Positions 18,152 to 58,260 of a stretch of 64,000 nt of DNA are shown here, piece after piece. The notes below the pieces were generated by a model, which searched no databases, was not told the DNA's origin, and saw nothing but the letters and a program-made list of their open reading frames with translations. Source of the stretch: Candidatus Zixiibacteriota bacterium. Its GTDB lineage: Bacteria > Zixibacteria > MSB-5A5 > GN15 > PGXB01. Position 1 is the stretch's first letter, and each line of letters begins with the position of its first letter. The stretch lies in NCBI GenBank assembly GCA_026397505.1, contig JAPLUR010000126.1, forward strand, positions 1 to 64,000, in the 5' to 3' direction. A program made the position numbers and the translations under genes.

Positions 18152-20431
18152 ATGTTTGTCCGCCCTAACCCTTCGCGGTACGGTTTACTTATTGTCATTT
18201 TTGGCCTCGCCATGTCCATGCTGGCGCTGGCCGGGCTGTCCCGCGCAGAAACAATCCCGTTCAGAATTGAAATCGGCAAGGCTTATGAAATCATGCCCGG
18301 CGATACCGCCCGGGTCAATGTCATCAAAACGGGAGGAGATCAGGATATCCATGGATACGATTTATTCATCGGATATGATCTCAATATCCTGACTTTTGTC
18401 GAGGTTGTCCCCGGGGTGCTTTATGATATTCCCGGTCCATACGAATGGGAGTATTTCAGCTACCGCAATGGTGTCCCCAGTTGTCCCGATACCATCTGCC
18501 CCTCGGGCGTGATTCGGGCGGTCAGTCTTTCGGATATGCTCAACGGGTCGCATCACCCGGTTCTGGAGAATATTATCGACGGGACAATCCTGTTTACCAT
18601 GAAGTTTCTTGTTCCCAGCGATCCGGCTCTCAACTGCACCAAATTTCCGCTCCGCTTTTTCTGGCATGACTGCGGTGACAATGGAATCAGTTATCCCGAT
18701 AGCGGTTTTGAAAGATTTTCTGTCTCCAACATCATTACCGATTTGCAGGGGATCAATATTACCGATTCATTAGTAGATTTTCCTACCTTGTACGGTGCAC
18801 CGGAAACCTGTATTGTAACTTCCGCGCCTCATCCGGCGAAAAGATTCACAGACTTTGTCAACGGCGGAGTGAGTGTTTACTGCCCTAATCCGCCATCGGA
18901 GGGAGATATCAACCTCAATGGACTTGCCTATGAGGTTGGCGATGGCGTGCTTTTCGCCGATTATTTCCTGAAGGGTCAGTCGGTATTCACCATTGACCTT
19001 GAGGCTCAGATCGCCGCCACCGATATCAAGACAGATCAAATTCCGTTAACTCTGGAAGATTATGTTTATCTCCTGCGGGTCATCAACGGCGTCCTTCCTC
19101 CCTGGTATTCCGGCCCGCCGCCGATGACTACCGAGAAATTCAACGGTCTGCTTTCCATCACCGAGACCGATTCCTCACTCATTATCCGCACCGATTTCGA
19201 TGATTCGGTTTCGGCCATGCAAATCTGTTTCTACGCCCCGGGATTGAGCGGTTACAGAATAAAATTCTTCTCTGATATCGACAGTACGCTGGTGGCCGGA
19301 AATCTTACCGATGACTCGCTCAAAATACTTATTGCCGACTCGCTTGAAACTGCCCATGCCACGGTGCTGGATACCGGTATTCTCAATGTTCTGGAACTGG
19401 TTTATACCGGCCCGAAGCCGGTCTTTGTTCATGCTTCTGCCGCCGGTTTCTGGGCCCAGCATGTTAATCTCATCGTAGCCGCCCTGCCGAATAACCCGCC
19501 GGTTTTTGTCAACCCGCCGGAGGAACTGAGAAACGACTTCTCTGGCGGATTCCATTATATTTTCACGGCGCAGGACCAGAACACCCCGCCTGACTTGATT
19601 GAATATCATATTGTCTCGGGCCCGGGGGAGATAAATCCTCTTACCGGCAAGTGGTTCTATTACCCACTCTGTCTTGATAGCGGGACAACGCTGATGCTTG
19701 AGTTATGCGCTTCCGATATTGCCCACCCCTGCCCTCAGCCGGATAGCAATCTTCATGCTTTTGTCCGGATTGTAGTCGATTCCGCGCCGCCGTTGCTTGG
19801 CGATGTCGACAGCAGCGGGGTGCTTAATATCGCCGATGTTACATATGATATCAACTTCATTTATAAGAATGGACCGGCTCCTCTGCCGGTGCCGGAGGTA
19901 GCCGATGTCAACAGTGACGGCCTGATCAATATCCGGGATATCACCTATATGATCAATTACCTCTATAAAAACGGGGCGGCGCCGAGATGTCCATCCGAGA
20001 ATCCCCCCATGGGTTATCTGACCGGGCACAGCGACTGCAAAGCGCCCGGCCCGGCCAAAGCGCTCGCCGATTCATTGAACGAGGACTGCCTGACCTATCA
20101 ATATGACGGATTTGGCACTCTCATTCTCAAGCATATCAACGCCCTCTTTAATTGCTGTCCGCTGTTTATTGCCAATGTCTATATTCAGGGGAATGAGATA
20201 ATTGTCGAGGAATTTGATTCGCTTGACAACGGCGGCTGTGATTGTGTCTGCCCGTTCGATATGGACTACCGGATCGATAATCTTCCGGCGGGGCAATATA
20301 CGATACGGGTAATTGAGCCGTATGTGCCGCAGGGCGATCCGGTTCTGGAGTTTCCCATTGATTTGAATCTGAATCCGGTCGGGTATTATTGTGTGGATCG
20401 TCCCTGGTTGCCGTGGGTGGCCGGGAAGTAA
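18152..20431 (+). CDS. Secreted protein with cohesin-like N-terminus and internal dockerin-like pair
   Basis: A 759-residue exported protein. AAGGAGG precedes the ATG at 18152, and the signal peptide ends near LAGLSRA-E. Residues about 35-180 resemble a cohesin module (PGDTARVNVIKT, IHGYDLFIGYD, ILTFVEVVPG). Residues about 235-315 hold a GDINLNGLAYEVGDGVLFAD segment like a diverged calcium loop. Residues about 320-430 form a second beta-sandwich, and about 440-540 a cadherin/Ig-like domain. A dockerin-like pair follows at about 548-613 (GDVDSSGVLNIADVTYDI and ADVNSDGLINIRDITYMI). Unlike its relatives in this window, it continues for another 145 residues of Cys-rich beta structure. The calcium loops and the beta-sandwiches suggest a surface or matrix protein; the partner is unknown. 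Confidence 0.78.
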   Translation: MFVRPNPSRYGLLIVIFGLAMSMLALAGLSRAETIPFRIEIGKAYEIMPGDTARVNVIKTGGDQDIHGYDLFIGYDLNILTFVEVVPGVLYDIPGPYEWEYFSYRNGVPSCPDTICPSGVIRAVSLSDMLNGSHHPVLENIIDGTILFTMKFLVPSDPALNCTKFPLRFFWHDCGDNGISYPDSGFERFSVSNIITDLQGINITDSLVDFPTLYGAPETCIVTSAPHPAKRFTDFVNGGVSVYCPNPPSEGDINLNGLAYEVGDGVLFADYFLKGQSVFTIDLEAQIAATDIKTDQIPLTLEDYVYLLRVINGVLPPWYSGPPPMTTEKFNGLLSITETDSSLIIRTDFDDSVSAMQICFYAPGLSGYRIKFFSDIDSTLVAGNLTDDSLKILIADSLETAHATVLDTGILNVLELVYTGPKPVFVHASAAGFWAQHVNLIVAALPNNPPVFVNPPEELRNDFSGGFHYIFTAQDQNTPPDLIEYHIVSGPGEINPLTGKWFYYPLCLDSGTTLMLELCASDIAHPCPQPDSNLHAFVRIVVDSAPPLLGDVDSSGVLNIADVTYDINFIYKNGPAPLPVPEVADVNSDGLINIRDITYMINYLYKNGAAPRCPSENPPMGYLTGHSDCKAPGPAKALADSLNEDCLTYQYDGFGTLILKHINALFNCCPLFIANVYIQGNEIIVEEFDSLDNGGCDCVCPFDMDYRIDNLPAGQYTIRVIEPYVPQGDPVLEFPIDLNLNPVGYYCVDRPWLPWVAGK

Positions 20432-20806
20432 TCCGAATATATTTAGCGACTTCGGGCGGGAGATTATTGCTCCCGCCCTTTTTGTTTGAATTGTCGAAAT
20501 TTCGAAGCTTGGCGTTAAATCTAAATTTTTCAGCAAATCCCTTGACATCCGGTTCTTCTATATATAGCTTATTTGAAGATTTTTCTTGACATTACTGAGG
20601 ATCAGCGCAATTCGCATCACGTACAGCCTATTGGTCAGTCAAGAATATTTATCTGACATTGATAGACATCTTCGTGTAACGCGGTGATTTCCAATCGTGA
20701 GATTGCCGCGGAACTCATCCTTTCCTTCAAGAAGGAGGTGATGACAAGCATAGTAAATACTTAAAATAAGAGAGGACTCCAACATAATGAAATCATAGGA
20801 GGAGAA
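20432..20806. other. 375-bp gap between the two large dockerin genes
   Basis: This contains the terminator at 20454-20483 and a TTGACA at 20542-20547 with only weak -10 candidates. A second TTGACA lies near 20586. An AAGGAGG at 20732-20738 sits 2 nt before a 7-codon frame (MTSIVNT-stop). No other gene was seen. Confidence 0.5.
20454..20483 (+). terminator. Rho-independent terminator
   Basis: A perfect 9-bp stem (GGGCGGGAG with CTCCCGCCC), 7-nt loop, then TTTTT. It ends the cohesin/dockerin transcript. Confidence 0.92.
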
Positions 20807-23110
20807 ATGCGTACCAAATGGAAAAGGCTCGGAATGGTTTACATGGTTCTAATGCTTGTGCTGGCAAGCTCACCCGACTTGTCGGCACAGAATCCGGCAA
20901 GCCCTGTCCCTAATGGCGATGTAACCATCCATCTTAATGGGGGTGCTGATGTCGCCTATATCGGCGACACAAACACAATTGAATTCTGGATAAGAAATGA
21001 TGCCAAAATAATGGCCATGTCGATTGCCTTTGAATTCACAATCGGGAGGAGCTATTACTTTGATCCAACGCACGGGCCTAAGGGATATGTCAGGCCGGTC
21101 GGAGACGCCGTCGACGCTTTCGACATGGGCGGGCATCAGGAAAACAAACGAATAGATAATGTGACCCCTGACAGCGTGTTGTTTGGAGGAGTCGCTCAGT
21201 TTAACGGATTGCCTGTCCATATGACTCTTGCACTCTGCTATACCATGAAGCTCTTTATCCCGCCCGGCCAAAATCCCCTCCCCGACGGCTTATGCATCGA
21301 TAATATATTTTCCCCTCCCGCCGGACAGTGGACCTTTGTCGAGGAAGACCAATCCACTTATCCGCCCACATATCAAGGCAATCCCAATGCCAGTTCGAGT
21401 AACCCCGATGCCCCGCCGGTCTGCTTCGACATCGTAAACCTCCCCAGCGTTTCATTCTGCCAAATCGATTTTGTTCTTGATGGTTCTACATATGCCAATT
21501 CCGATTGGGGAAAAGCAATCTTGACCCATGATGGTTTCGACGATGTCCGATATTTCAACTTGAATGTCGACGGGATATGGTCACTGCAGAATATTCCGAT
21601 AGTGAGTGTAGAACAAGACGTAGTACAGTCGATAGCTTTTGTATTCGACCTCGGAGTCCCGGCAGGAACCGACATCACCAGCATTCAATACGGGTATTCG
21701 CTAACCGCGACCGCATTGAGCACAAAACCGCCGATCAGCGGCACTGCCGCTGTTACGGACTGTCCAGAAATATGCTACAGCGGCATAAGCGGAGTCCCCG
21801 TCCCCTTACCCGGTCCGGCCGGCCCAATCATACTGGGACCCATTTTCCTGCCGCCGGTTGTTAATCCGGTACATCCCAATTTCCCCAATCAGGAGGCCGG
21901 GCTGATGGAATGCGTTCCAACCGCTGTCTCCAATAGCCTTAAATTCCTGAAGGAGAAATATAACCTGGACATTAAAGACGACGATATTTCAATCGACAGC
22001 CTGAAGAGGGGCTGTGGATTTATTCCCGGCTGGGGATGCGATGCAGACGAGTGGTGGAAAGATAAGAAAGCATACTTGGAAGAAAAGAAGATTCCTATTA
22101 CCACCAGAAAAGAAACCGATATATCCAAACTAAAGGAGGAGCTTGAAAAGGGTCAGGACGTCGAATTGGAGGGCGAATGGCATTGCGCCGCTATCGTGGG
22201 GATAATCAGGTTGGCCGACGGCAGATATGTAATCCTGGTTGCTCATGATAAACAACAAGGGCATGGTGGCGGCATGGTGGTTGAACCGGTCGTTTATGAC
22301 CCTACAACGGGAAAGTTAAGCGGCAGCCCCGGCTTCTTCGATGGTTCATCTTTACTCTACGGCGTTGTGGAATGTCCCAAAACTGAGGAGACCCCGGGTA
22401 CTAATAGAGACAATACTAATAAGTATAACGGCGGTAATCCTGAAGGTTCCCCCTGGCACGAATTATATCCGGCTTACTGTCGAAATTGGACCCTCGACAA
22501 ATGGCATGACAATGGCGACAGCACGCTCAGCTACTGCGACACCGTGGAATTTACTGATGACCAGACTCATGCGAGGTCTATCGAACATATCGAGGAGGTC
22601 ACCACGACCATCACCGTCACCCAATACAATCCGCCGACCAGTGATACAATCTACGCCGACTTCTGGTATGGCAATCCCGACATGGGTCCGATAATACCCG
22701 AGCCCGGAGATCTATGGCACGAAGTCTACCCGGTTTATTCGCGGCTGTATCGTCTGGAATGGTGGGATGATAATGGCTCCGGGAAACTTGATTCCTGTGA
22801 TTATCTGACATTTAAGAGGATCAATCCGCTGGACTCCACCACTCTATATTGCTGGCATGTGGAAAAGGTGGAGGTGGATATAATTTCCACGCCGCTTTCG
22901 TGCTGTGATATGCCGGGTGACGCCAATAATGATGGGCTTATCAACATCAGGGATATTACCTATCTAATCAACTACCTGTACAGGAGTGGCCCCCTGCCAC
23001 CATGTGCGGCTGAGGGCGATGCTAATGGCGACGGAGTTGTTAACATTCGCGATATCACGTATCTGATTAACTATCTCTATAGACAAGGACCGGCGCCTGT
23101 TTGCCCATAA
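20807..23110 (+). CDS. Secreted C39-like cysteine peptidase-domain protein with C-terminal dockerin-like pair
   Basis: A 767-residue exported protein. AGGAGG precedes the ATG, and the signal peptide ends near DLSAQ. Residues about 30-340 are beta-rich. Residues about 360-525 resemble a C39/papain-like domain: MECVPTAVSNSLKFL places a candidate nucleophile Cys at about 369 at the start of a helix, EWHCAAIVGI gives a candidate His at about 459, and VAHDKQ follows. Next come two related modules starting WHELYPAYCRNWTLDKWHDNG and WHEVYPVYSRLYRLEWWDDNG. The last 65 residues carry two dockerin-like loops (GDANNDGLINIRDITYLI and GDANGDGVVNIRDITYLI). Peptidase activity is inference; an inactive, binding-only fold is possible because the rest of the family signature is weak. 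Confidence 0.75.
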   Translation: MRTKWKRLGMVYMVLMLVLASSPDLSAQNPASPVPNGDVTIHLNGGADVAYIGDTNTIEFWIRNDAKIMAMSIAFEFTIGRSYYFDPTHGPKGYVRPVGDAVDAFDMGGHQENKRIDNVTPDSVLFGGVAQFNGLPVHMTLALCYTMKLFIPPGQNPLPDGLCIDNIFSPPAGQWTFVEEDQSTYPPTYQGNPNASSSNPDAPPVCFDIVNLPSVSFCQIDFVLDGSTYANSDWGKAILTHDGFDDVRYFNLNVDGIWSLQNIPIVSVEQDVVQSIAFVFDLGVPAGTDITSIQYGYSLTATALSTKPPISGTAAVTDCPEICYSGISGVPVPLPGPAGPIILGPIFLPPVVNPVHPNFPNQEAGLMECVPTAVSNSLKFLKEKYNLDIKDDDISIDSLKRGCGFIPGWGCDADEWWKDKKAYLEEKKIPITTRKETDISKLKEELEKGQDVELEGEWHCAAIVGIIRLADGRYVILVAHDKQQGHGGGMVVEPVVYDPTTGKLSGSPGFFDGSSLLYGVVECPKTEETPGTNRDNTNKYNGGNPEGSPWHELYPAYCRNWTLDKWHDNGDSTLSYCDTVEFTDDQTHARSIEHIEEVTTTITVTQYNPPTSDTIYADFWYGNPDMGPIIPEPGDLWHEVYPVYSRLYRLEWWDDNGSGKLDSCDYLTFKRINPLDSTTLYCWHVEKVEVDIISTPLSCCDMPGDANNDGLINIRDITYLINYLYRSGPLPPCAAEGDANGDGVVNIRDITYLINYLYRQGPAPVCP

Positions 23111-30169: not shown

Positions 30170-32695
30170 TCAAAATTCCATTGGCGAAATTCTTGCCCCA
30201 TCAGGATTGATATAGAGCAAATCCCGACGGTGAATAATCAGGGCGGGAACGGTTTTCTCGTCGCCCAACCCCGCCGCCAGAATGACCTCTTGCGGACGCA
30301 CGTACCCCGCCGAACCAACACCCAGTTCCATCACCACCACCGCCTTTTCCGGCGCAAGGGTGCTTTCCTCCAGATAAGAAAGCTCATAAATGGCCGGGCG
30401 AATATTCACAACTTTGATTTCATCTTTGGCGGTACGATTTACTTCAACCTTCTCTTGAGACAGTAGATAAGCTAATTTATCACGGCAATCAATACTTTTA
30501 TCTATAACAACCTCATATACGGCCCGGTTGAGCTTGCTGGATAAAGACTCCTTACCGCCGATAACCGGCCTGGCCATAACCAGAAAATACCCCTGCGGGA
30601 GTGACTCGCTGAGCCGACCGGCCATAGGAGGATAAAACGGCCTCTCCAGCGACAGGTCGAAATATTCCGCATCCGAGGTGAATCCGAGCGGCAAGGGCGG
30701 GCCATACGATACTTTCATGTGCGGGTGATATCCCTGGGAATATTCAATCGGCAGTCCCGACCGGCGGATTGCCCGCTCCATGACGCGAAGATTATCGAGA
30801 TGGGAAAGGAATCGGGTCAGTCCTTTTCTTCCCCAGCGCACCCGCACCTGCCCTTTGGTGGGGGCGACCCCCGCTTTCTGAACCCCCTTCTTGCGGGAGC
30901 GGCCAAAACCGCTTTCTTCTTCATCGCCATTCTCAATGGCCGGTATGGGCGCCGTCGATCCTTTGGTTGACTCCCGAAGAAGGGTTGAGGTGCGGTTTCT
31001 TTCGTGGATGAGATGCTCCACTGAAATATCAAGCTCGATATGCGACCAGGGCAGAATTTCGGAAAAGGGTTTTTCTTTCAAGTAGTCATGGGGATTGAGA
31101 TTATTTTTCTCGAAAGCTCTCTGCCAGAGCCCAAAATCAAATCCCTCGCTCCAGCCGTCGAAACGGGCGCCGTCATGGAAAGCCGTTTCTACCACCGAGG
31201 CCATCTCCTGTCCGCCGCGCCCCAGAACACCCTCCAGAAAAGATAGCTCCTGGTCACGCAGCTTTATGTTCACAAAGGAACTGCCGGCATTCCTCCGAAT
31301 ATATTCACTCTTCTGCCGCACATCATCCGGCGCCGGCTGCCGGTCCCACTGGAACGGCGTGTGTGATTTCGGGGAAAAAGGTGAAATGGTCACATTGATG
31401 GCATTTTTCCCCTTAATCTCGCGGGCTATCCGACTGACCTGCTGGATCATCTGCACGATCCCCTTTATATCGTCATCCGTTTCGGTCGGCAACCCGACCA
31501 TGAAATACAACTTAACCAGATTCCAGCCGTTTCCAAAAGCGAGACGAATAGTATCGTACAGTTCCTTGTCGGTAATATCTTTTCGTATCAACGCCCGCAG
31601 CCGCTCGGTGCCCGCCTCGGGGGCAAAGGTGAGACCGGTCTTGCGGGTCAACTTTATAGCCGTTATTAATTCCGGGGTCAGAGTGCCGGGGCGGAGTGAG
31701 GGAAGCGATAAGGCCACCTTTTTCCCCAGCAGTTCGCGCGATAATTGGGCGGTCAGAGGAAGGATATCGGGATAATCACTTGATGAGAGCGATAGCAGTG
31801 TCACCTCATCAAAGCCGCTGCGTTCGATCTGGCGGTGCACCTGCGCAATAATTTCTTCTTTGGAACGCAAACGCAATGGGCGATAGATGGCGGTGGCCTG
31901 GCAGAAACGGCAGCCGCGGGGGCAGCCGCGCATGATTTCCACCGCCAGACGGTCATGCACCGTCTCTACAAATGGCACCAGCGGCTGAGCAGGATAATAA
32001 TCTTCCTTGAGCTGTTTGAGACGGTGGCTCCGGATCTTGGCCGGGGCAAAATCTACTAAAGGTTTATGGGTTATCGGGTCGTAGAAGCGCGGAACATATA
32101 CTCCCGAAATCTCACGGGCTATTCTCTCGAGCTTATCTACACGGGACAGATTCCTATTATCACTGATTATTTCCAGCAACCTGATGATATTATCCTCGGC
32201 ATCACCGATGTAAAATAAATCAATGAAAGGTGCGGTCGGCTCGGGATTGTGCACCACCGGACCGCCGGCAATTATCAGCGGATGATCCTCCCCGCGGTCG
32301 GCCGCCCGGAGCGGTATCCCCGAAAGATCGAGAATGTTGAGCAGATTGGTATAAACCATCTCATAGGCCAGCGTAAAACCGACCAGGTCAAATTGCGCCA
32401 GCGGCCGGAAGGATTCCAGGCTGAAATATGGAATTTTCTCACGGCGGAGAATCGCCTCGGCATCTATATCGGGGGCATAAAACCGCTCGCAGAGGAAGCG
32501 GTCGTCGGAATTGATAATATTATATAAAATCTGTGTCCCCAGATAAGACATCCCAATTTCGTACATATCGGGATAGCCAATCGCCACTTTCAGCCGATTT
32601 TCCGGGGGCTTGACAATCTGCCCCAATTCGCCACCGGTGTACCGCCCGGGTTTAATGACGAAGGGCAAGAGTTTTTCTTCTAGAAGTTGCCGCAT
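30170..32695 (-). CDS. Fused B12-binding radical SAM protein with DUF2344 domain
   Basis: An 841-residue fusion. The first 600 residues match the TIGR03960-type B12-binding radical SAM family: PDMYEIGMSYLGTQILY in the cobalamin-binding part, then the 4Fe-4S cluster motif CPRGCRFC (C-x3-C-x2-C) near residue 260. Residues about 625-841 match DUF2344/TIGR03936 (WGRKGLTRFLSHLDNLRVME, GYHPHMKVSYGPPLPLG). In other genomes these two parts are often separate adjacent genes near ribonuclease G and rplU. The exact reaction is unknown to me. No ribosome binding site precedes the ATG, and a promoter at 32703-32730 would make the transcript start at or within 2 nt of the ATG. Confidence 0.9.
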   Translation of the reverse strand: MRQLLEEKLLPFVIKPGRYTGGELGQIVKPPENRLKVAIGYPDMYEIGMSYLGTQILYNIINSDDRFLCERFYAPDIDAEAILRREKIPYFSLESFRPLAQFDLVGFTLAYEMVYTNLLNILDLSGIPLRAADRGEDHPLIIAGGPVVHNPEPTAPFIDLFYIGDAEDNIIRLLEIISDNRNLSRVDKLERIAREISGVYVPRFYDPITHKPLVDFAPAKIRSHRLKQLKEDYYPAQPLVPFVETVHDRLAVEIMRGCPRGCRFCQATAIYRPLRLRSKEEIIAQVHRQIERSGFDEVTLLSLSSSDYPDILPLTAQLSRELLGKKVALSLPSLRPGTLTPELITAIKLTRKTGLTFAPEAGTERLRALIRKDITDKELYDTIRLAFGNGWNLVKLYFMVGLPTETDDDIKGIVQMIQQVSRIAREIKGKNAINVTISPFSPKSHTPFQWDRQPAPDDVRQKSEYIRRNAGSSFVNIKLRDQELSFLEGVLGRGGQEMASVVETAFHDGARFDGWSEGFDFGLWQRAFEKNNLNPHDYLKEKPFSEILPWSHIELDISVEHLIHERNRTSTLLRESTKGSTAPIPAIENGDEEESGFGRSRKKGVQKAGVAPTKGQVRVRWGRKGLTRFLSHLDNLRVMERAIRRSGLPIEYSQGYHPHMKVSYGPPLPLGFTSDAEYFDLSLERPFYPPMAGRLSESLPQGYFLVMARPVIGGKESLSSKLNRAVYEVVIDKSIDCRDKLAYLLSQEKVEVNRTAKDEIKVVNIRPAIYELSYLEESTLAPEKAVVVMELGVGSAGYVRPQEVILAAGLGDEKTVPALIIHRRDLLYINPDGARISPMEF

Positions 32696-32702
32696 TTGCG
32701 CT

Positions 32703-32730
32703 AAGATACAAAAAAACCCGCTTTTTTCAA
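32703..32730 (-). promoter_or_regulatory. Promoter of the radical-SAM/rsmB unit, nested in a terminator
   Basis: TTGAAA (-35, inside the loop and stem of the terminator at 32708-32738) and TATCTT (-10) with 16-bp spacing, minus strand. Transcription would begin at about 32695-32697, where the ATG is 32695. Confidence 0.45.
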
Positions 32731-32738
32731 GCGGGTTT
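32708..32738 (-). terminator. Terminator of the DUF4388 operon
   Basis: On the minus strand a perfect 10-bp stem (AAACCCGCTT with AAGCGGGTTT) and a 5-nt loop are followed by a T run. It lies 20 bp after the zinc-ribbon-like gene and 13 bp before the next start codon. Confidence 0.88.
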
Positions 32739-32758
32739 TAATGATAAACCTTATTCAA

Positions 32759-32944
32759 TCAACCATATACTTCAGAATGGTTACATTTACAGACGCCGAC
32801 ATTGGTGCTTTTGAACCTCCAACCGTTCTCCGAACGCTCTGCTTTCACATACTTGACAAAATTCATCGGCTGTTCGCAGACCGGGCAGAGAGTAAGGTGT
32901 TTCTTTTTCGAGGCTTTATCGGCGAAACTCTGTTTCTTTGCCAT
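32759..32944 (-). CDS. Small zinc-ribbon-like protein
   Basis: A 61-residue basic protein not recognised by name. A CPVC pair near residue 20 and a CKC triplet near residue 53 (KHLTLCPVCEQPM ... GVCKCNHSEVYG) could hold one metal ion, like a treble-clef or zinc ribbon. GAGGAG lies 10 nt before the ATG. The first 29 bp overlap the 3' end of the preceding gene. It is the last gene of a four-gene operon that ends at a strong terminator. Confidence 0.75.
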   Translation of the reverse strand: MAKKQSFADKASKKKHLTLCPVCEQPMNFVKYVKAERSENGWRFKSTNVGVCKCNHSEVYG

Positions 32945-33164
32945 GGTTTATTATCTCCTCTATCTCAATTCGACCATTTTCCAGTTCAAAAATATCTTCT
33001 TTGACCGCCAGAAGCAGCTCGGTCGTTTCCTTTAATATACGAAAATCGGCCGATTCCGCAAACTGATTTTCGGCGCTCCGAAAAAAACCTGAAGCTGAGG
33101 CATAATCCTGCTTTTTCAGCGCCAGAAGCGCCCGCATATAGGCCTTTTCCGCATTAGACAACAT
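32916..33164 (-). CDS. Small helical protein of unknown function, 82 residues
   Basis: An all-helical sequence (MLSNAEKAYMRALLALKKQDY...) with a single TPR-like pattern (A-x6-A-x2-GF-x3-AE). No membrane span or signal peptide. It overlaps both neighbours (11 bp upstream, 29 bp downstream), which supports translation and coupling. A chaperone-like or partner role to the adjacent operon products is only a guess. Confidence 0.6.
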   Translation of the reverse strand: MLSNAEKAYMRALLALKKQDYASASGFFRSAENQFAESADFRILKETTELLLAVKEDIFELENGRIEIEEIINHGKETEFRR

Positions 33165-33798
33165 CTTTTACCCCGAATTTGTTCTTCTCAATCTCTTTCA
33201 ATCGTCTGACAAACGGCCCCACCTTATATCCGTTGATTTTGAGATAATAGATTACCGACCCCGCCAGATGCATAAACATCCGGTCCTCTTTGGCTTCCGC
33301 CGACTTGAGAATATCATCAAGAATCGATATCAGATGGGCGCTCCCTTTCTGCTCAAATTCGAGATGTTCGCTCTCCTGTTTCAGAAGCGCCACAAATTTC
33401 TCGGCAATATTTTGCTCCGCACCCTCCCCTTTGATTTTCAGCACCAGCTTTCTCTTGGGAACCACTCCTTTTTCGCGCCAGCGCTCAATTTCATCGGATA
33501 GTTTCTTAGTTTCCGGGTCGGAACTGTCCAAACCGCTTTTTATCTCGCTTAGAATATTGGCAATAGTCGAGACTTCATCTTCTTTCAAGCGCCCTCCATC
33601 TACAACCCGGCCGTAGCGGGCAAACCAGTTACCGAGTTGATTGTTGATAAACCGTCCCTTGAACGAATCCCTGGCGATATCATCAAGAGTGTCAATCCCG
33701 CGGAACGCCTCAATCTGCTCGGTCTCGGTCTACACCACCACGGCCAGAAACCGCTCCAGAACCGATTCAAGCTTTTTCAATGTCTCCAGGCGTGTCAA
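33154..33798 (-). pseudogene. Unknown 214-codon gene interrupted by an in-frame TAG
   Basis: The downstream 144 codons (33154-33588) are an open frame, but the same frame reads sensibly further upstream through a TAG at 33730-33732 to a TTG at 33798 preceded by AGGGAAG. The sequence before the stop ends LERFLAVVV and after it resumes TETEQIEAFRGIDTLDDIA and RGRFINNQLGNWFARYG-like coding text. The first start codon after the TAG is 47 codons on (TTG 33588) with no binding site. TAG is used as a normal stop elsewhere in this window, so genome-wide recoding is unlikely. A nonsense mutation (GAG to TAG would restore Val-Glu-Thr-Glu) or a sequence error is the simplest reading. The product is helical and acidic, and its function is unknown. 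Confidence 0.6.
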
Positions 33799-33816
33799 GG
33801 CTAGCTCTTCCCTGCT

Positions 33817-34701
33817 TTAAATCTCGTCCGAATCTTTAAGAACCGTCTCGATGTTGTTTCTCAGGACCTGCACTGTGGTGCGCTCATTGGGTGCCGCTTT
33901 TTTCTTACCGGCAATGTATTCCTCGAGGAGGCCCGCGACTCGGTCAACCATGGCGGCCAAACGATCCGCTTCCGCCTCTTTCTTTCCGCCGACCGTTACC
34001 AGTCCGGCCAGTTTCAGCGCGCCTAACTTGCGAAGCGCATCCTGACGCGGCATTTTCGACAGATCCGAAATCTCGCCGGCAGTCCGGCGGCCGTTAACCA
34101 GGGCCAAAAGGTTCCATTCATCGGCCTGAAGCGAGACATTGGTATGTTTTTCCGGCGGCGCCGAAGCGATTGCCAGAACGGCATTTATATCCGGAAGCGT
34201 CTCTTTGACATGATTTTGTTCATCCAGACGGCGCATCCCCTCCAGAATGGCGTTTTCAACCGAAATATTGACCGTTATTTCCTCTTCGGTGGGATATTGA
34301 TTCTCATAAAACTTAAACGACCCGCTCTCCCATGAGAGAAGCGAAAAAATCAGTTCTTCGACCTGCGTTTTGACCACCTGCTCAAGATCCTGGCGCTTGA
34401 TATATCCTTTTTCTATAAGAATCCGCCCCAGACGTTTGGAGCTTTCGGTTCTGGCCTGAACATTGACCGCATCATTGAGCTGTTCGGCGCTGATTTTCCC
34501 CTTTTCGCGGAGAAGCTCCCCCAGATGATAGGTCTGGCGCGGCCCATAGCCGTAGACAATCTGACCCTGTTTGAAATAGACCATGACGATATCATCGTCT
34601 TTCTGAATTCCGAGGGTGCCGGTTTTGCGGCTGTTGGCGATAAGTTGGAATATCTCGGGCAATGTAAAGCGGCCGATTTTACCCTGTAAATCCTGGTCCA
34701 T
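33817..34701 (-). CDS. DUF4388 (PATAN-like) domain protein
   Basis: A 294-residue cytoplasmic protein. Residues 1-140 match the DUF4388/PatA N-terminal type: GRFTLPEIFQLIANSRKTGTL, VYFKQGQIVYGY, then a GspE-like segment LGELLREKGKISAEQLNDAV and LGRILIEKGYIKRQDLEQVV. Residues about 195-240 form a winged-helix-like module (LALVNGRRTAGEISDLSKM). DUF4388 proteins are associated with gliding, signalling and polar-protein regulation. It heads a four-gene operon whose other members are unknown. GGAG precedes the ATG. Confidence 0.85.
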   Translation of the reverse strand: MDQDLQGKIGRFTLPEIFQLIANSRKTGTLGIQKDDDIVMVYFKQGQIVYGYGPRQTYHLGELLREKGKISAEQLNDAVNVQARTESSKRLGRILIEKGYIKRQDLEQVVKTQVEELIFSLLSWESGSFKFYENQYPTEEEITVNISVENAILEGMRRLDEQNHVKETLPDINAVLAIASAPPEKHTNVSLQADEWNLLALVNGRRTAGEISDLSKMPRQDALRKLGALKLAGLVTVGGKKEAEADRLAAMVDRVAGLLEEYIAGKKKAAPNERTTVQVLRNNIETVLKDSDEI

Positions 34702-34928: not shown

Positions 34929-36896
34929 CTACCAACCGCAGGGGGCCGCACCGCCCAAATACAGGAATTTAATCAAATGGGTTATATCCTGAATATTGGT
35001 CTGCCCGTTGCAGTTGATGTCTCCCGCCTCGGGCGGAATGGGGCTGGGTCCCCCGCGATAGAGGAAATCGATCAGGTAAGTAATATCACGAATATTCGCA
35101 ATATCATCACCGCTGACATCACCCGGAATATAGGTAACCGCCGTTACAGCAAAAGCGTGGGAATATTCCGTCCAATCGGCACCGTCAAAAGTTCGCACCC
35201 GCCAATAGTACACTATGTCCGGGCTAAGCGGAGCGGAGGAAATGTATTTCGGGGAAACCAGCCCGCCGACATCGATAATCGGGGCGCGAAAATCATAATA
35301 GCGGTCGAGCTGGATTTGGTACCGGTAACCGGGTTGCGGATTGGCGATCAAGCCGGTCCAGTCAAAACTGGGTCTCCCGGCCGCCATGGTCTGGCCGTTG
35401 GCCGGCTGTATCGAAGAGGTCGGTTCGACTTTGTAGTAGAAAACGAGACTGTCGGAAGCGCTGCCCGGCACATCATAGTCCTTAAACAGCGTCGCCTTAA
35501 TATTGCCGATATTGATATCACCGGAGAATTTGGATCCGGCCGGTGCATTCGGTTTCTTCCTGAAGACCAGTTTGTATTCTCCGTTCTGGAGGTTATAGTC
35601 AATCGACTGCTGATCAATCAGATTGTCCTGGTTGGCATCGAGGCGACAGAAAGCGGCACCGGCGACAGTCGTGAAATCTCGGGAGAGACGGAAATTATCC
35701 GGGTTGGTGATAGCAACCGAGGCATTGGAATAAACGGTGGTAATCATACGATTATCGAGAATCGGCCGGTCGGGAAGTTGATTCATGAAAAGCTTGATAC
35801 TATCCTCACCAGTAGAACCAGAGACAAAATCGGGGTTACCGTCGCGGTCGATGTCTCCCGGCGCCAGTGCCACCGCATAAGGTTCGGTAGTGAAAGAGAC
35901 TTGAAGGGAGTTGCTAAAATATCCCTGGCCGTCTCCCAGAAAGAAGACCATCTCTCTGTTAGTCGGATCCATGACAATCAGGTCAAGGTTATTGTCGCGG
36001 TTGACATCGGTAATCGCCATCCCCCAGGCATAACCATATATACTCAACGTATCCATGTGAATCACGCCACCGGCGCCATCGCCATACCCAATCGTCACAT
36101 AAGCCAGGCTGCTCGGGATCATCGCCGTGATGAAAGCAAAATCCTCGTTGCCGTCGTGGTTGAAATCGGCGAACGGCTCGGTAATCGAGACGGCCGCAGT
36201 AAAATTCCCCAGATTGAAAGAATAAGACTGAGTGAAATTGGTGTTGCCGTCATTCAAAAAAATTCCTGCCAGGCCGGCCCAATCGATGCCGATAATGTCA
36301 TCGATGCCATCACCGTTAAAATCACTGACATAGACCGTCTGCGCGGGAATGCGCCCCTCATATATGGTCGGAAAATTTCCATTTCCGTCACCGAGATAGA
36401 TATTTCCGGAAGCGGCTATATCAAGATATTGGTCGCTATTGAAATAACCGGTAGCGATACCCTGCAGGTTACTGTAGGGTTGAGATATTGAATCGACTGC
36501 AAAATTGCGGCTACCATCATTGACAGCTACCATGATATCATACACAAAATTGGTGGCAATATCGGGAAGAGTGTCGCCGTTGATATAGCCGATGGTAAAA
36601 GTCGTCCCCTCAAATCCATAGACCACCGGCGTTTCAAAATGACCATCCGGCATCCCATACATAATTCTTATATTAGCGTTGATATCGCCGACAAAGATTA
36701 TATCCATATTTCCATCACGGTCGATATCGGCAGTCTGCACACCAAAAATACTGCCGGGATGTGTTTTGACGATTTCGAAATAAAGGCTGTCGGCCGGGTT
36801 AAGAGCCAGCGCGATTCCGGTCGGAACCGAAAGCCAGAGCAATAAGAAAATCACCGACAATCCTATCGCCATTTGAGGGGAAGCAACTTTCCTCAT
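34929..36896 (-). CDS. Secreted FG-GAP/VCBS propeller protein with C-terminal dockerin-like pair
   Basis: A 655-residue exported protein. The start is the ATG at 36896 (MRKVASPQMAIGLSV), because GGAGGG lies 5 nt upstream; the signal peptide ends near GIALA. Residues about 45-380 hold seven FG-GAP-like repeats with D-x-(D/N)-x-(D/N)-G-x2-D calcium loops (ADIDRDGNMDIIF, SDFNGDGIDDIIG, TDVNRDNNLDLIV), the makings of an integrin-like seven-bladed propeller. A beta-domain and an Fn3-like module (YYWRVRTFDGADWTEYSH) follow. The C-terminal pair is GDVSGDDIANIRDITYLI and GDINCNGQTNIQDITHLI. The role is probably surface adhesion or carbohydrate binding; no enzyme motif is seen. Confidence 0.85.
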   Translation of the reverse strand: MRKVASPQMAIGLSVIFLLLWLSVPTGIALALNPADSLYFEIVKTHPGSIFGVQTADIDRDGNMDIIFVGDINANIRIMYGMPDGHFETPVVYGFEGTTFTIGYINGDTLPDIATNFVYDIMVAVNDGSRNFAVDSISQPYSNLQGIATGYFNSDQYLDIAASGNIYLGDGNGNFPTIYEGRIPAQTVYVSDFNGDGIDDIIGIDWAGLAGIFLNDGNTNFTQSYSFNLGNFTAAVSITEPFADFNHDGNEDFAFITAMIPSSLAYVTIGYGDGAGGVIHMDTLSIYGYAWGMAITDVNRDNNLDLIVMDPTNREMVFFLGDGQGYFSNSLQVSFTTEPYAVALAPGDIDRDGNPDFVSGSTGEDSIKLFMNQLPDRPILDNRMITTVYSNASVAITNPDNFRLSRDFTTVAGAAFCRLDANQDNLIDQQSIDYNLQNGEYKLVFRKKPNAPAGSKFSGDINIGNIKATLFKDYDVPGSASDSLVFYYKVEPTSSIQPANGQTMAAGRPSFDWTGLIANPQPGYRYQIQLDRYYDFRAPIIDVGGLVSPKYISSAPLSPDIVYYWRVRTFDGADWTEYSHAFAVTAVTYIPGDVSGDDIANIRDITYLIDFLYRGGPSPIPPEAGDINCNGQTNIQDITHLIKFLYLGGAAPCGW

Positions 36897-37294: not shown

Positions 37295-38524
37295 CTACGG
37301 ACAGATCGGCGGCGGCCCGCCTTTGTAAAGAAATGCAATCATATAGGTTATGTCCTGAATGTTCCTTTTGCCGTCATTATTGAGATCCCCGCGCGCGAGG
37401 GGATCGGGCGCCGGCCCGCCTTTGTAGAGGAAATTGATAAGAAACGTTATGTCGCGGATACTCGCTTTCCCGTCCCCATCAACATCGCCGCAGAGATAAT
37501 ATTGCAGCACCGGTTTCTGGGTGAGAAGCGTCTCCTGCCCGCCGGCTGTAACCGTCACTTTTATCGAATCGCTGCCTGCTGTCGCCGGGGCTTTCATGAA
37601 AGCCAAGAACGTCCCATCGCCATTATCGACCACCGGGGTTAGGATTCCACCTCCGCTGTGGGCTATCGCCACTGCGGCGCCCATCACCGGCGGCTGCCCC
37701 TGGTTGTTGAGCGGTGTCACGGTGATACGTATCGAATCCTGCCCGCCGCTCGCAAGAATTGTCTTATCGACCGTCACGGTCGAGATATTCGGATCGGCAT
37801 AACGCAGTGCTTTCCAGGCATTGAATCGCACCAAAAGCGAATCAAGGGGATTCTTGGAGCAGAGTGTATTGTCGACATATTCCCAGAGGTATGGTGTCGC
37901 GCCGTCGCCGATATGCACCACTTTGATAAAAGAGGAAATAGCCGGTTTGTCGCACGACCAGCAGCGAGTGTCGGCGCCGGGCGTATTGGCCGCCATCAAT
38001 GCCGCCATTAATTTATCTTCGAGCGGCCCGGTTGTCCGGAGGAATGCCGCCTGCATCGAATCAAGTATCCAGCCATCGAGAAGGATATTCCCCTGAATGG
38101 AGTATCCTATTCCGGTCAGATGTCCGGCCCATGGTGAGTTGATAGTTCCCGTGTACCCCGCCGAAGCTCCCGACCCGGCCAGGGTGACCACTCCATATTG
38201 GCGGTACCCCGGATCACCCTCGACATCATTTGCCGCCAGCCAGCCGATAATCGAATCCGGTGTCAGTCCCTGCAGCATACGATTATGAGCATTATTCTGA
38301 TTTTGCACCAGATAGTACGCCTGCGTGTGGATCGCACCGATCCCCTCAATAAGATCGTTGATAATTCTTGAGTTGGCGATGCAGGAGGCACCGGCCCCGC
38401 CGACGGCGCCGGTTTCGGTGTCAACCGCCACAATGGAAAATGTGGCCAGGGCCGCCGTGGGCAAAAGCAACAAAAGGCAAATAATCGGTGCCTTATGCAA
38501 TAAGCTCTCTTTAATAAGTCTCAT
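37295..38524 (-). CDS. Secreted DUF1028 protein with Ig-like domain and C-terminal dockerin-like pair
   Basis: A 409-residue exported protein; signal peptide MRLIKESLLHKAPIICLLLLLPTAALA-T. Residues about 28-240 match DUF1028, a family with an Ntn-hydrolase-like start (FSIVAVDTETGAVGGAGASCIA ... GIGAIHTQAYY), whose activity is not established. Residues about 245-335 form an invasin/Big-like beta-sandwich (TVDKTILASGGQDSIRITVTPLNNQG). The C-terminus carries GDVDGDGKASIRDITFLI and GDLNNDGKRNIQDITYMI, each followed by FLYKGGP. AGAAGGAG precedes the ATG. It is the only protein here that joins a possible enzyme of known fold class to the dockerin pair. Confidence 0.85.
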   Translation of the reverse strand: MRLIKESLLHKAPIICLLLLLPTAALATFSIVAVDTETGAVGGAGASCIANSRIINDLIEGIGAIHTQAYYLVQNQNNAHNRMLQGLTPDSIIGWLAANDVEGDPGYRQYGVVTLAGSGASAGYTGTINSPWAGHLTGIGYSIQGNILLDGWILDSMQAAFLRTTGPLEDKLMAALMAANTPGADTRCWSCDKPAISSFIKVVHIGDGATPYLWEYVDNTLCSKNPLDSLLVRFNAWKALRYADPNISTVTVDKTILASGGQDSIRITVTPLNNQGQPPVMGAAVAIAHSGGGILTPVVDNGDGTFLAFMKAPATAGSDSIKVTVTAGGQETLLTQKPVLQYYLCGDVDGDGKASIRDITFLINFLYKGGPAPDPLARGDLNNDGKRNIQDITYMIAFLYKGGPPPICP

Positions 38525-44316: not shown

Positions 44317-45552
44317 ATGATTCCTCTTCTTTCGGTAAAGCAATTCCTGCGCGACATGCGCAATCAGAAGCTTCGCACCTTTATGACCATGGGCGGAGTT
44401 CTATGGGGCACACTGGCGATAGTCCTTCTTTTCGGCTTCGGGAAAGGGATCCACAAACAACAAATGAAGTCCCAGCGCGGCCTGGGTGAAAATATCGCCA
44501 TCGTCTGGCCCAACATCACCTCAAAGCCATGGCAGGGCCTGCCCCGGGGCCGGAACATCAATTTCACCGAAGAGGATGTTGCCCTGATGAAATCCCGCAT
44601 CGGCAGCATCAATTATATTTCGCCGGAATATTCCAAGTGGGGCGTACGGCTTAAGTACGGTCGGAACGAAGTGATTCAGAATATAATCGGCGTGTGGCCG
44701 GAATTCGGTGAGATGCGCAACCTGATTCCCGATAGCGGCGGAAGATTTATCAACGCATATGATATCGGCTTGAAGCGAAGAGTAATTTTCATCGGTGATG
44801 AACTGAAAAAACAACTCTTTGGAACCGATGAGGCTATCGGGAAATATATTCTCGTCAACAATGTTCCTTTTCAGGTCATCGGCGTCCTCAAACCAAAAAA
44901 GCAGGACAGTTCCTACAGCGGCCGCGATAATAACAAAGGGGTTATTCCCTCCAGCACTTTCCAGGGGATGTACTCACGGCGGTATCTGAACGACTTTGTG
45001 GTGCAGCATAAAGAAACCAGCTCCATGCAAAGCGTGAAGGATGAAATATACACTCTGCTGGGAAATAAGTACCGCTTTGACCCTTCCGATAAGGAAGCAC
45101 TGTCGATTTGGGACACGACCGAAGGGATGAAGTTCCTGAGCACTTTCTTCTGGGCTTTCAGAATTTTTCTGATCGGCATCGGCGTGGCGACTCTCATTAC
45201 CGGCGGCATCGGGGTTTCCAATATCATGAATGTGGTACTGGAGGAGAGGACCAAGGAAATCGGGATCAAGATGGCGTTGGGGGCGAAAAAAGCGATGATA
45301 AAGCTGCAATTTGTTTTCGAGACGCTGCTCCTGACCACGGTCGGCGGGCTGGCCGGATATTTAATCGGTATCGGGATAATAAAGATAGTTCCACTTTTCA
45401 AGTTTGATGACTTCATAGGTATCCCCGAAGTTGATGTACTGGGGACGGCGGTAGCGGTGGGTGTGCTGGGCATAATCGGCCTGATCTCCGGATATTTCCC
45501 GGCCCGGCGGGCGGCCAATCTTCAACCGGTGCAGGCCCTGAAACTGTATTGA
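44317..45552 (+). CDS. MacB-like ABC permease, first copy
   Basis: A 411-residue membrane protein of the MacB/FtsX class: one N-terminal helix (about 20-45), a large periplasmic domain (MacB_PCD type, about 60-270) and three C-terminal helices (FtsX core, about 285-400: GGIGVSNIMNVVLEERTKEIGIKMALGAKK). It is a paralogue of the next gene (shared NQRGLGE/SQRGLGE and KEIGIKMA signatures). It has no fused ATPase, unlike E. coli MacB. It follows the adaptor by 15 bp. Confidence 0.93.
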   Translation: MIPLLSVKQFLRDMRNQKLRTFMTMGGVLWGTLAIVLLFGFGKGIHKQQMKSQRGLGENIAIVWPNITSKPWQGLPRGRNINFTEEDVALMKSRIGSINYISPEYSKWGVRLKYGRNEVIQNIIGVWPEFGEMRNLIPDSGGRFINAYDIGLKRRVIFIGDELKKQLFGTDEAIGKYILVNNVPFQVIGVLKPKKQDSSYSGRDNNKGVIPSSTFQGMYSRRYLNDFVVQHKETSSMQSVKDEIYTLLGNKYRFDPSDKEALSIWDTTEGMKFLSTFFWAFRIFLIGIGVATLITGGIGVSNIMNVVLEERTKEIGIKMALGAKKAMIKLQFVFETLLLTTVGGLAGYLIGIGIIKIVPLFKFDDFIGIPEVDVLGTAVAVGVLGIIGLISGYFPARRAANLQPVQALKLY

Positions 45553-45555
45553 GAT

Positions 45556-46803
45556 ATGAATCCAAAACTTCTATATAACGTTTTCATGCGCGATTTCCGC
45601 AAACAGAAAAAGCGGATGACGCTGACGATCCTGGCCATCGCCTGGGGATCGATATCGATCATGCTCCTGCTGGCTTTCGGTGAAGGGCTTAAGAGTCAGA
45701 TGCTGAATAACCAGCGCGGCCTTGGAGAAGGGATCTCAATAATGTGGGGCGGGCAAACCTCGATTCCATTTCAGGGATTAGGCAAGGGGCGGCCGATCCG
45801 TTTTACTTCCGATGATGTCGAGTATCTCCAGCGGCGCATGCCGGAATTGCGCCATGTTGCCGGTGAATATACGGCCTGGGGAACAAATATCAAATACAAA
45901 GATAAGATCTTCTCCGAACGTGTGACGGGTGTCTATCCCTGCTATGAAGACATCCGCACCCATTATCCGATGTCGGGCGGGCGATTTATCAATAATCTTG
46001 ACATGGAGCAGAAACGGCGAGTGGTTTTTCTGGGCGATGAATTGAAAACAAAACTGTTCGGCGCCGAAGATGCTGTCGGGAAGCAGGTGCTGATAAATTC
46101 CATTCCCTTCATGGTAATCGGAGTGATGCAAAAGAAGAACCAGATGTCCATGTATAACGGCCCGGATGCGGCTTGCGCCAGCATCCCGGCGACCACTTTT
46201 GCGGCCATTTATGGCTATCAATATTTCAGTCTCATGATATACCAGCCGAAAGACATCTCCACTTCTGCGGCGGTTGAAACCCGCGTTTACGAGGTGATGG
46301 GAGCCAAACATAAATTCGACCCGAAAGATGAACGGGCTCTTTCAATCTGGGATGTGGCCCAGGAGGCGCGTGAGTTCAGTAACATCATGATGGGAATCCA
46401 GATATTCCTGGGATTAATCGGCGGGATGTCGCTTCTTATCGCCGGAGTCGGTGTCGCCAATATCATGTATGTCTCGATTAAAGAACGGACACGCGAAATC
46501 GGCATCAAGATGGCTGTCGGCGCCAAGCGAAAGTACATTCTGATTCAGTTTCTGGTGGAATCGCTTTCCATCACGGCGGTCGGCGGCTTCTTCGGCATGT
46601 CGCTCAGTTACATACTGACCGAAGCATTCAAAAGAATACCGATTCAGAGCGACGTCCTCGATTTCATGGGCCGACCCACCGTCTCGGCGGAAATCGGTCT
46701 CATCGTCGTTGCCGTGCTCGGCGTCATCGGATTCGTCTCGGGGATTTTTCCGGCGGCCAAGGCGGCCTCGGTCAATCCGGTGGAATCGCTCCGCTATGAA
46801 TAG
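45556..46803 (+). CDS. MacB-like ABC permease, second copy
   Basis: A 415-residue paralogue of the preceding permease, with the same topology and the C-terminal signature GVANIMYVSIKERTREIGIKMAVGAKRK. Its start is 3 bp after the stop of the first copy. Two different half-permeases plus one separate ATPase suggest a heterodimeric transporter. This is inferred from the tandem arrangement. Confidence 0.93.
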   Translation: MNPKLLYNVFMRDFRKQKKRMTLTILAIAWGSISIMLLLAFGEGLKSQMLNNQRGLGEGISIMWGGQTSIPFQGLGKGRPIRFTSDDVEYLQRRMPELRHVAGEYTAWGTNIKYKDKIFSERVTGVYPCYEDIRTHYPMSGGRFINNLDMEQKRRVVFLGDELKTKLFGAEDAVGKQVLINSIPFMVIGVMQKKNQMSMYNGPDAACASIPATTFAAIYGYQYFSLMIYQPKDISTSAAVETRVYEVMGAKHKFDPKDERALSIWDVAQEAREFSNIMMGIQIFLGLIGGMSLLIAGVGVANIMYVSIKERTREIGIKMAVGAKRKYILIQFLVESLSITAVGGFFGMSLSYILTEAFKRIPIQSDVLDFMGRPTVSAEIGLIVVAVLGVIGFVSGIFPAAKAASVNPVESLRYE

Positions 46804-57454: not shown

Positions 57455-57757
57455 TTACCACTTCATTATATTAATCCGGTCGACATCGATGCCGTGCCAG
57501 TTACGGTACAACAGCAGGACAATGGCCAGTCCGACCACCGCCTCCGCCGCCGCCACCGCAATGATAAATGTCGCAAAAATCTGACCGGTCAGATTATCCG
57601 GGCCGATATATTTATTAAAAGTGACCAGGTTGATATTGGCCGCATTAAACATCAATTCCAGAGACATCAGGATACCAACCGCGTTGCGCCGGGTTAGCAC
57701 CCCGAATACACCAATCGCAAAAAGTATTGCCGCCAGAGCCAGGTATTGAAGCATCAT
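57455..57757 (-). CDS. nuoK: NADH-quinone oxidoreductase subunit K
   Basis: A 100-residue three-span subunit. The membrane glutamates used in proton transfer are present (GILMSLELMFNAANINLV and AAAEAVVGLAIVLLLYRN). The ATG at 57757 shares one base with the nuoJ stop. Confidence 0.96.
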   Translation of the reverse strand: MMLQYLALAAILFAIGVFGVLTRRNAVGILMSLELMFNAANINLVTFNKYIGPDNLTGQIFATFIIAVAAAEAVVGLAIVLLLYRNWHGIDVDRINIMKW

Positions 57758-58260
57758 CAGGCGCCTTCCTTCCGGGCCAGAACAATGGCGCCGATCAGCG
57801 CGGCCAGCAGCACTATCGATACAACTTCAAAAGGCAGGACATATTCATTCATAAGCATCTTGCCCATGGCCAGAGGATTATTTTCCGGCAGGGGGCGATC
57901 GACTATTCTCCAGACCGTCTTGGACAGCGAACCGAGGCTGACGAGAAGAAATCCGGCGCAGACAAAAATCCCCAATGTTACCTGTTCGTTGCTCTGCTTG
58001 ATTTGACGGGAGGTAAGCTGGCTGGTCAGCATGATCGCGAATATAATCAGCACCGAAACCGCGCCGACATAAATCAGCACTTGCACCGCGGCCAGGAATT
58101 CAGCATGAAGCATGACATAAATCCCGGCGACGGCAAATAATGTGAGAATAAGAAACAGCGCCGAATGAAATATATTCTTCAGCGTCACCACATAAATAGC
58201 GGAAATTATTATAATAAACGACAGCAGATAAAATATTGTCTGGGAAACTTCAGTTTCCAT
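57757..58260 (-). CDS. nuoJ: NADH-quinone oxidoreductase subunit J
   Basis: A 167-residue five-span membrane subunit with the conserved LNAEFLAAVQVLIYVGAVSVLIIFAIML-type stretch (HAEFLAAVQVLIYVG). It overlaps nuoI by 11 bp and touches nuoK. Confidence 0.95.
   Translation of the reverse strand: METEVSQTIFYLLSFIIIISAIYVVTLKNIFHSALFLILTLFAVAGIYVMLHAEFLAAVQVLIYVGAVSVLIIFAIMLTSQLTSRQIKQSNEQVTLGIFVCAGFLLVSLGSLSKTVWRIVDRPLPENNPLAMGKMLMNEYVLPFEVVSIVLLAALIGAIVLARKEGA

Follow-up and report, generated by a model that had tools for sequence, protein, structure and literature searches.

A lone in-frame TAG interrupts a conserved operon gene in one Candidatus Zixiibacteriota assembly

A conserved bacterial gene is interrupted by a single in-frame TAG at its 23rd codon in a genome assembly of Candidatus Zixiibacteriota (GCA_026397505.1), in the 64,000-nucleotide stretch of contig JAPLUR010000126.1 that was analyzed and is referred to here as the window. 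The interruption of a single gene, reported in the initial annotation, was confirmed. The TAG is best read as an isolated one-base lesion in a single assembly, either an error in the consensus sequence or a nonsense mutation of very recent origin. This reading is favored because all 14 other genomes of the family are free of a stop in the gene, the remainder of the gene is undecayed, and the TAG is the only interior stop among 45 stretches of the window that were compared with relatives. As a premature stop, it is an ordinary kind of event.

Results

Reading frame. The features of the locus are listed in Table 1. The TTG start is preceded, eight bases upstream, by GGGAAG, in agreement with the proposed start and ribosome binding site 22 codons ahead of the TAG (the TTG counted), and 191 codons lie between the TAG and the TAA that ends the gene. 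The coding potential of the frame was measured with a dicodon score, for which 251 long frames from 464 kb of the same genome served as the training set. The score was positive before and after the TAG, with 7.2 over the 22 codons before it, 10.9 over the 47 codons up to the first possible restart, and 43.2 over the rest, while the other two frames of the same strand scored negative in the two pieces to which the test was applied. A single antisense frame across the 47 codons also scored 7.5, and homologues therefore weigh more than the coding score in our argument. The exact TAG site is present once in the assembly.

Table 1. Features of the interrupted gene and its neighborhood (window positions)
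Feature	Position	Strand	Basis or remark
Conserved gene, full frame, 214 codons (TAG counted)	33157..33798	minus	frame and homologues
TTG start	33796..33798	minus	same placement in relatives
In-frame TAG, codon 23	33730..33732	minus	stop absent at this column in 29 compared relatives
TTG, first in-frame ATG/GTG/TTG past the TAG	33586..33588	minus	not the native start
TAA ending the gene	33154..33156	minus	frame reading
DUF4388 gene, upstream	33817..34701	minus	PF14332, 1.6e-38; adjoins the gene in 29/29 relatives
82-aa frame, downstream, overlapping the gene	32916..33164	minus	29/29 relatives, cut by contig end in L002
61-aa zinc-ribbon-like frame	32759..32944	minus	PF21957 below its cut-off; 27/29 relatives
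Fused B12-binding radical SAM protein	30170..32695	minus	TIGR03960/TIGR03936; 16/29 relatives, whose loci held only ~1.5 kb of flank

Homologues across the TAG. With the TAG read as Glu, the protein matched all 15 genomes of the family, its own included. In the other 14, the alignment begins at query residue 1 or 2 and continues across the TAG without an internal stop, so that its own genome is the only one of the 15 with a stop inside the gene. At the class level, 80 of 132 genomes matched, again including its own. The only other stop listed inside these matches was one TAG in the marginal match of G108, a weak C-terminal alignment (E value of 3.6e-4, residues 131 to 211). These alignments and the positive coding scores bear out the claim that the frame is coding-like both ahead of the TAG and past it, and the homologues show that the segments before and after it are one gene.

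A full-length alignment was made with 29 relatives, for which the start codons were chosen by the analyst. The column of the TAG is variable among them, with Glu in nine, Ala in five, Gly in four, Arg in three, and Asp, Lys, His, and Gln in two each; in the 14 family members it holds Glu in nine, Arg in two, and Asp, Ala, and Lys in one each. Glutamate, which the initial annotation had guessed from a GAG codon, is thus the commonest residue at this position (9 of the 29 relatives and 9 of the 14 family members). The comparison with related genomes that had been proposed as a check gave a sense residue at this column in all 29 relatives, and a stop was found there in none of these or of the 14 other family genomes. 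With the starts so chosen, the relatives begin with TTG (19), GTG (5), or ATG (4). Relative L002 has no ATG, GTG, or TTG at the conserved start; a CTG lies there ahead of a conserved Thr codon. A homologue that is 61% identical occurs in DYGG01000017.1, a record titled Ignavibacterium sp., a title that may be wrong.

Constraint after the TAG. Past the TAG, the protein departs from the family at 1 of the 37 columns that are invariant in the other 14 members, and the corresponding numbers for the others range from 0 to 3. The ratios of its terminal branch to those of three neighboring genes (1.29, 1.95, and 1.07) fall inside the range of the other members. Neither measure gave a sign of relaxed constraint or of further lesions, in a test in which decay would not yet show for a very recent lesion. 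Apart from the TAG, the protein is undecayed.

Isolation of the stop. Interior stops were sought in 464 kb of 3.44 Mb, made up of the window and 20 stretches of 20 kb, using a coding scan that misses frameshifts as well as stops with a start codon fewer than 20 codons downstream. The scan returned 13 candidates, 10 of which were translated around the stop. Only the TAG described here had no opposite-strand frame over the stop, and it is not covered by any frame of at least 60 codons. The 12 others were taken as antisense shadows, each stop lying under an opposite-strand frame that scored 20.1 to 299.6. The least clear of them is at 10561 of L077, where an opposite frame of 96 codons scores 20.1, and the 416 codons that precede the stop in the frame on its own strand score 67.5. 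When single-codon scores were used instead, the scan gave no candidates and missed the target as well. With no second interior stop in the 464 kb, TAG readthrough across the genome was rejected.

The window was also compared with the frames of two relatives. Six of the 45 best nonoverlapping stretches contained a stop, which was interior in the target alone. In three, the stop lies at the margin of the stretch (13220, 24584, and 39427/39406 ahead of the own start). In the stretch 45511 to 46800, the stop terminates the preceding gene, as the stretch's own frame starts at 45556, and the stretch 57501 to 57860 is a weak one that runs antisense to two minus-strand frames. The stretches 19790 to 23107, 34941 to 35174, and 37298 to 38440 share matches to the same proteins of the relatives, close to the C termini, through a common segment, which we take to be dockerin-like.

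Decoding of TAG. The tRNAs, pyrrolysine models, release factors, and TAG usage of this genome gave no indication of a special genetic code. None of the 44 tRNA genes that matched RF00005 (43 with a named anticodon) has a CUA anticodon, in a search that a very atypical tRNA could escape. ARAGORN assigned no type to the remaining tRNA gene (180 to 252 of L071), in whose loop no CUA occurs. This gene has an odd anticodon arm, scores 51.4 bits against the Rfam cut-off of 29, and is presumably Gly(TCC)-like; another Gly(TCC) tRNA gene is present in the genome. The models for the N- and C-terminal parts of PylS had no match in the genome; among 14 controls, one of these models matches only Methanosarcina acetivorans and the other matches 13, with one over its cut-off. 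The PylB model likewise had no match, and it matches 13 of the 14 controls, with one over its cut-off. The sole MttB homologue (2800 to 4197 of contig C98) has no internal stop and is probably a nonpyrrolysine member of that methyltransferase family. Two release factors with the GGQ motif are encoded, one with an SPF motif and one with PQT, which we assume to mark the RF2 and RF1 types, respectively. The 251 long frames end with TGA in 97 cases, TAA in 86, and TAG in 68. The 83 bases from the TAG onward showed no notable RNA structure (z of -0.17), as 74 of 200 shuffled sequences folded at least equally well.

Predicted protein and gene neighborhood. No Pfam or NCBIfam family, methyltransferase families included, matched the protein above its cut-off, and IFT81_CH was matched by one of nine aligned members at 0.001. 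No relative was found among solved structures (best E value, 0.08), by a fold search (best E value, 0.37), or by a single-protein search. The structure model from the single sequence was poor (pLDDT of 44.2) and that from nine sequences was moderate (pLDDT of 69.6 and pTM of 0.46). The protein is predicted to be mostly helical, and the nine-sequence model places the TAG within a long first helix predicted for residues 3 to 46.

The compact operon with overlapping neighbors that had been described for this gene holds on the downstream side, where the 82-aa frame overlaps it by 11 bases, but the DUF4388 gene on the upstream side is separated from the TTG by 18 bases. The group from 30170 to 34701 (DUF4388, helical, 82-aa, zinc-ribbon-like, and radical SAM proteins) occurs together in the 29 relatives, partly cut by the ends of their loci. 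In NCBIfam, the DUF4388 protein scores 55.3 bits, against a cut-off of 38, with NF053729, a cyclic di-GMP-binding domain related to MshE. The interrupted gene is an ordinary conserved bacterial operon gene of uncharacterized function.

Discussion

Mutation, error, and readthrough had all been listed as possible origins of the TAG. The first two remain, and readthrough found no support in the tRNAs, pyrrolysine models, release factors, TAG usage, or RNA folding. We give about an even chance to an error in the consensus sequence of a metagenome-derived genome, or to a minority variant that entered this consensus, and the source DNA would in that case read a sense codon at this site. The assembly is fragmented, with 147 contigs and 3.58% contamination, and the eight named relatives are all titled as metagenome-assembled genomes, as this genome would itself be. 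Against an error, the assembly is not visibly error-rich, since no second interior stop was found in the 464 kb.

To a real and recent nonsense mutation or strain variant we assign somewhat less than an even chance. Translation would then halt after 22 residues, with the remainder of the gene not yet decayed, and polarity may lower the translation of the overlapping downstream genes. The single clean lesion in an otherwise intact sequence is consistent with such a mutation, and with RF1- and RF2-type proteins present, the TAG should terminate translation. PMC7918605 also describes the vast majority of the in-frame stops that it detected in bacterial genes as short-lived and roughly SNP-like. 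However, all 15 family genomes have kept the gene, so its loss should be costly, and no sign of relaxed constraint was seen, although such a sign would not yet be expected from a very recent event. The single nonsense substitutions in intact bacterial genes in PMC7918605 resemble the present case in having one in-frame stop, conserved flanks, and an apparently recent origin. The present case differs from them in that there was no second genome of the genus among those searched and in that a consensus error is possible.

Functional readthrough or recoding, in which an amino acid is inserted at the TAG and some full-length protein is made, is unlikely. The frame does stay open and conserved past the TAG, and PMC7918605 argues for frequent readthrough of in-frame stops in prokaryotes. 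However, no stop occurs here in the 29 relatives or the 14 other family genomes; there is no CUA tRNA among the 44 genes and no match to the PylS and PylB models; the MttB homologue is free of stops; an RF1-type factor is present; TAG ends 68 of the 251 long frames; and no RNA structure follows the TAG. An in-frame TAG inside a gene is shared with pyrrolysine decoding, but here no PylS or PylB match, CUA tRNA, stop in relatives, or methyltransferase family match was found. The same feature is shared with reassignment of TAG as a sense codon, but here TAG closes long frames in number and release factors of both types are present. In contrast to conserved programmed readthrough, the stop is not kept in relatives and has no stimulating RNA structure. 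PMC8318568 lists a Zixibacteria bin, and its title places code expansion in Deltaproteobacteria. Still less likely, in our estimate, is a real TAG with low-rate near-cognate readthrough that serves as recent dosage control of the DUF4388-linked helical protein in one Zixibacteria species.

Least probable of all is that the real gene begins after the TAG, at 33588 or at a rare start, and that the open frame upstream arose by chance: a TTG does exist at 33588, but alignments with the 14 other family genomes begin at query residue 1 or 2 and span the TAG, and a start at 33588 would lose the conserved LDDIAR segment. The initial annotation had allowed that homologues might begin at 33588, without the residues upstream of it; those residues are present in the relatives, and 33588 is therefore not the native start. 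A start after the TAG is contradicted as the ancestral state, and only a secondary restart after the lesion could hold.

If the TAG is real, a 22-residue peptide would remain and the predicted long N-terminal helix would be cut. For annotation, some caution is warranted, as a gene call at 33588 would drop the conserved N terminus. As a stop codon, the TAG is of little importance. The by-product of its analysis is an uncharacterized conserved gene group, which is open to study in genomes where the gene is intact.
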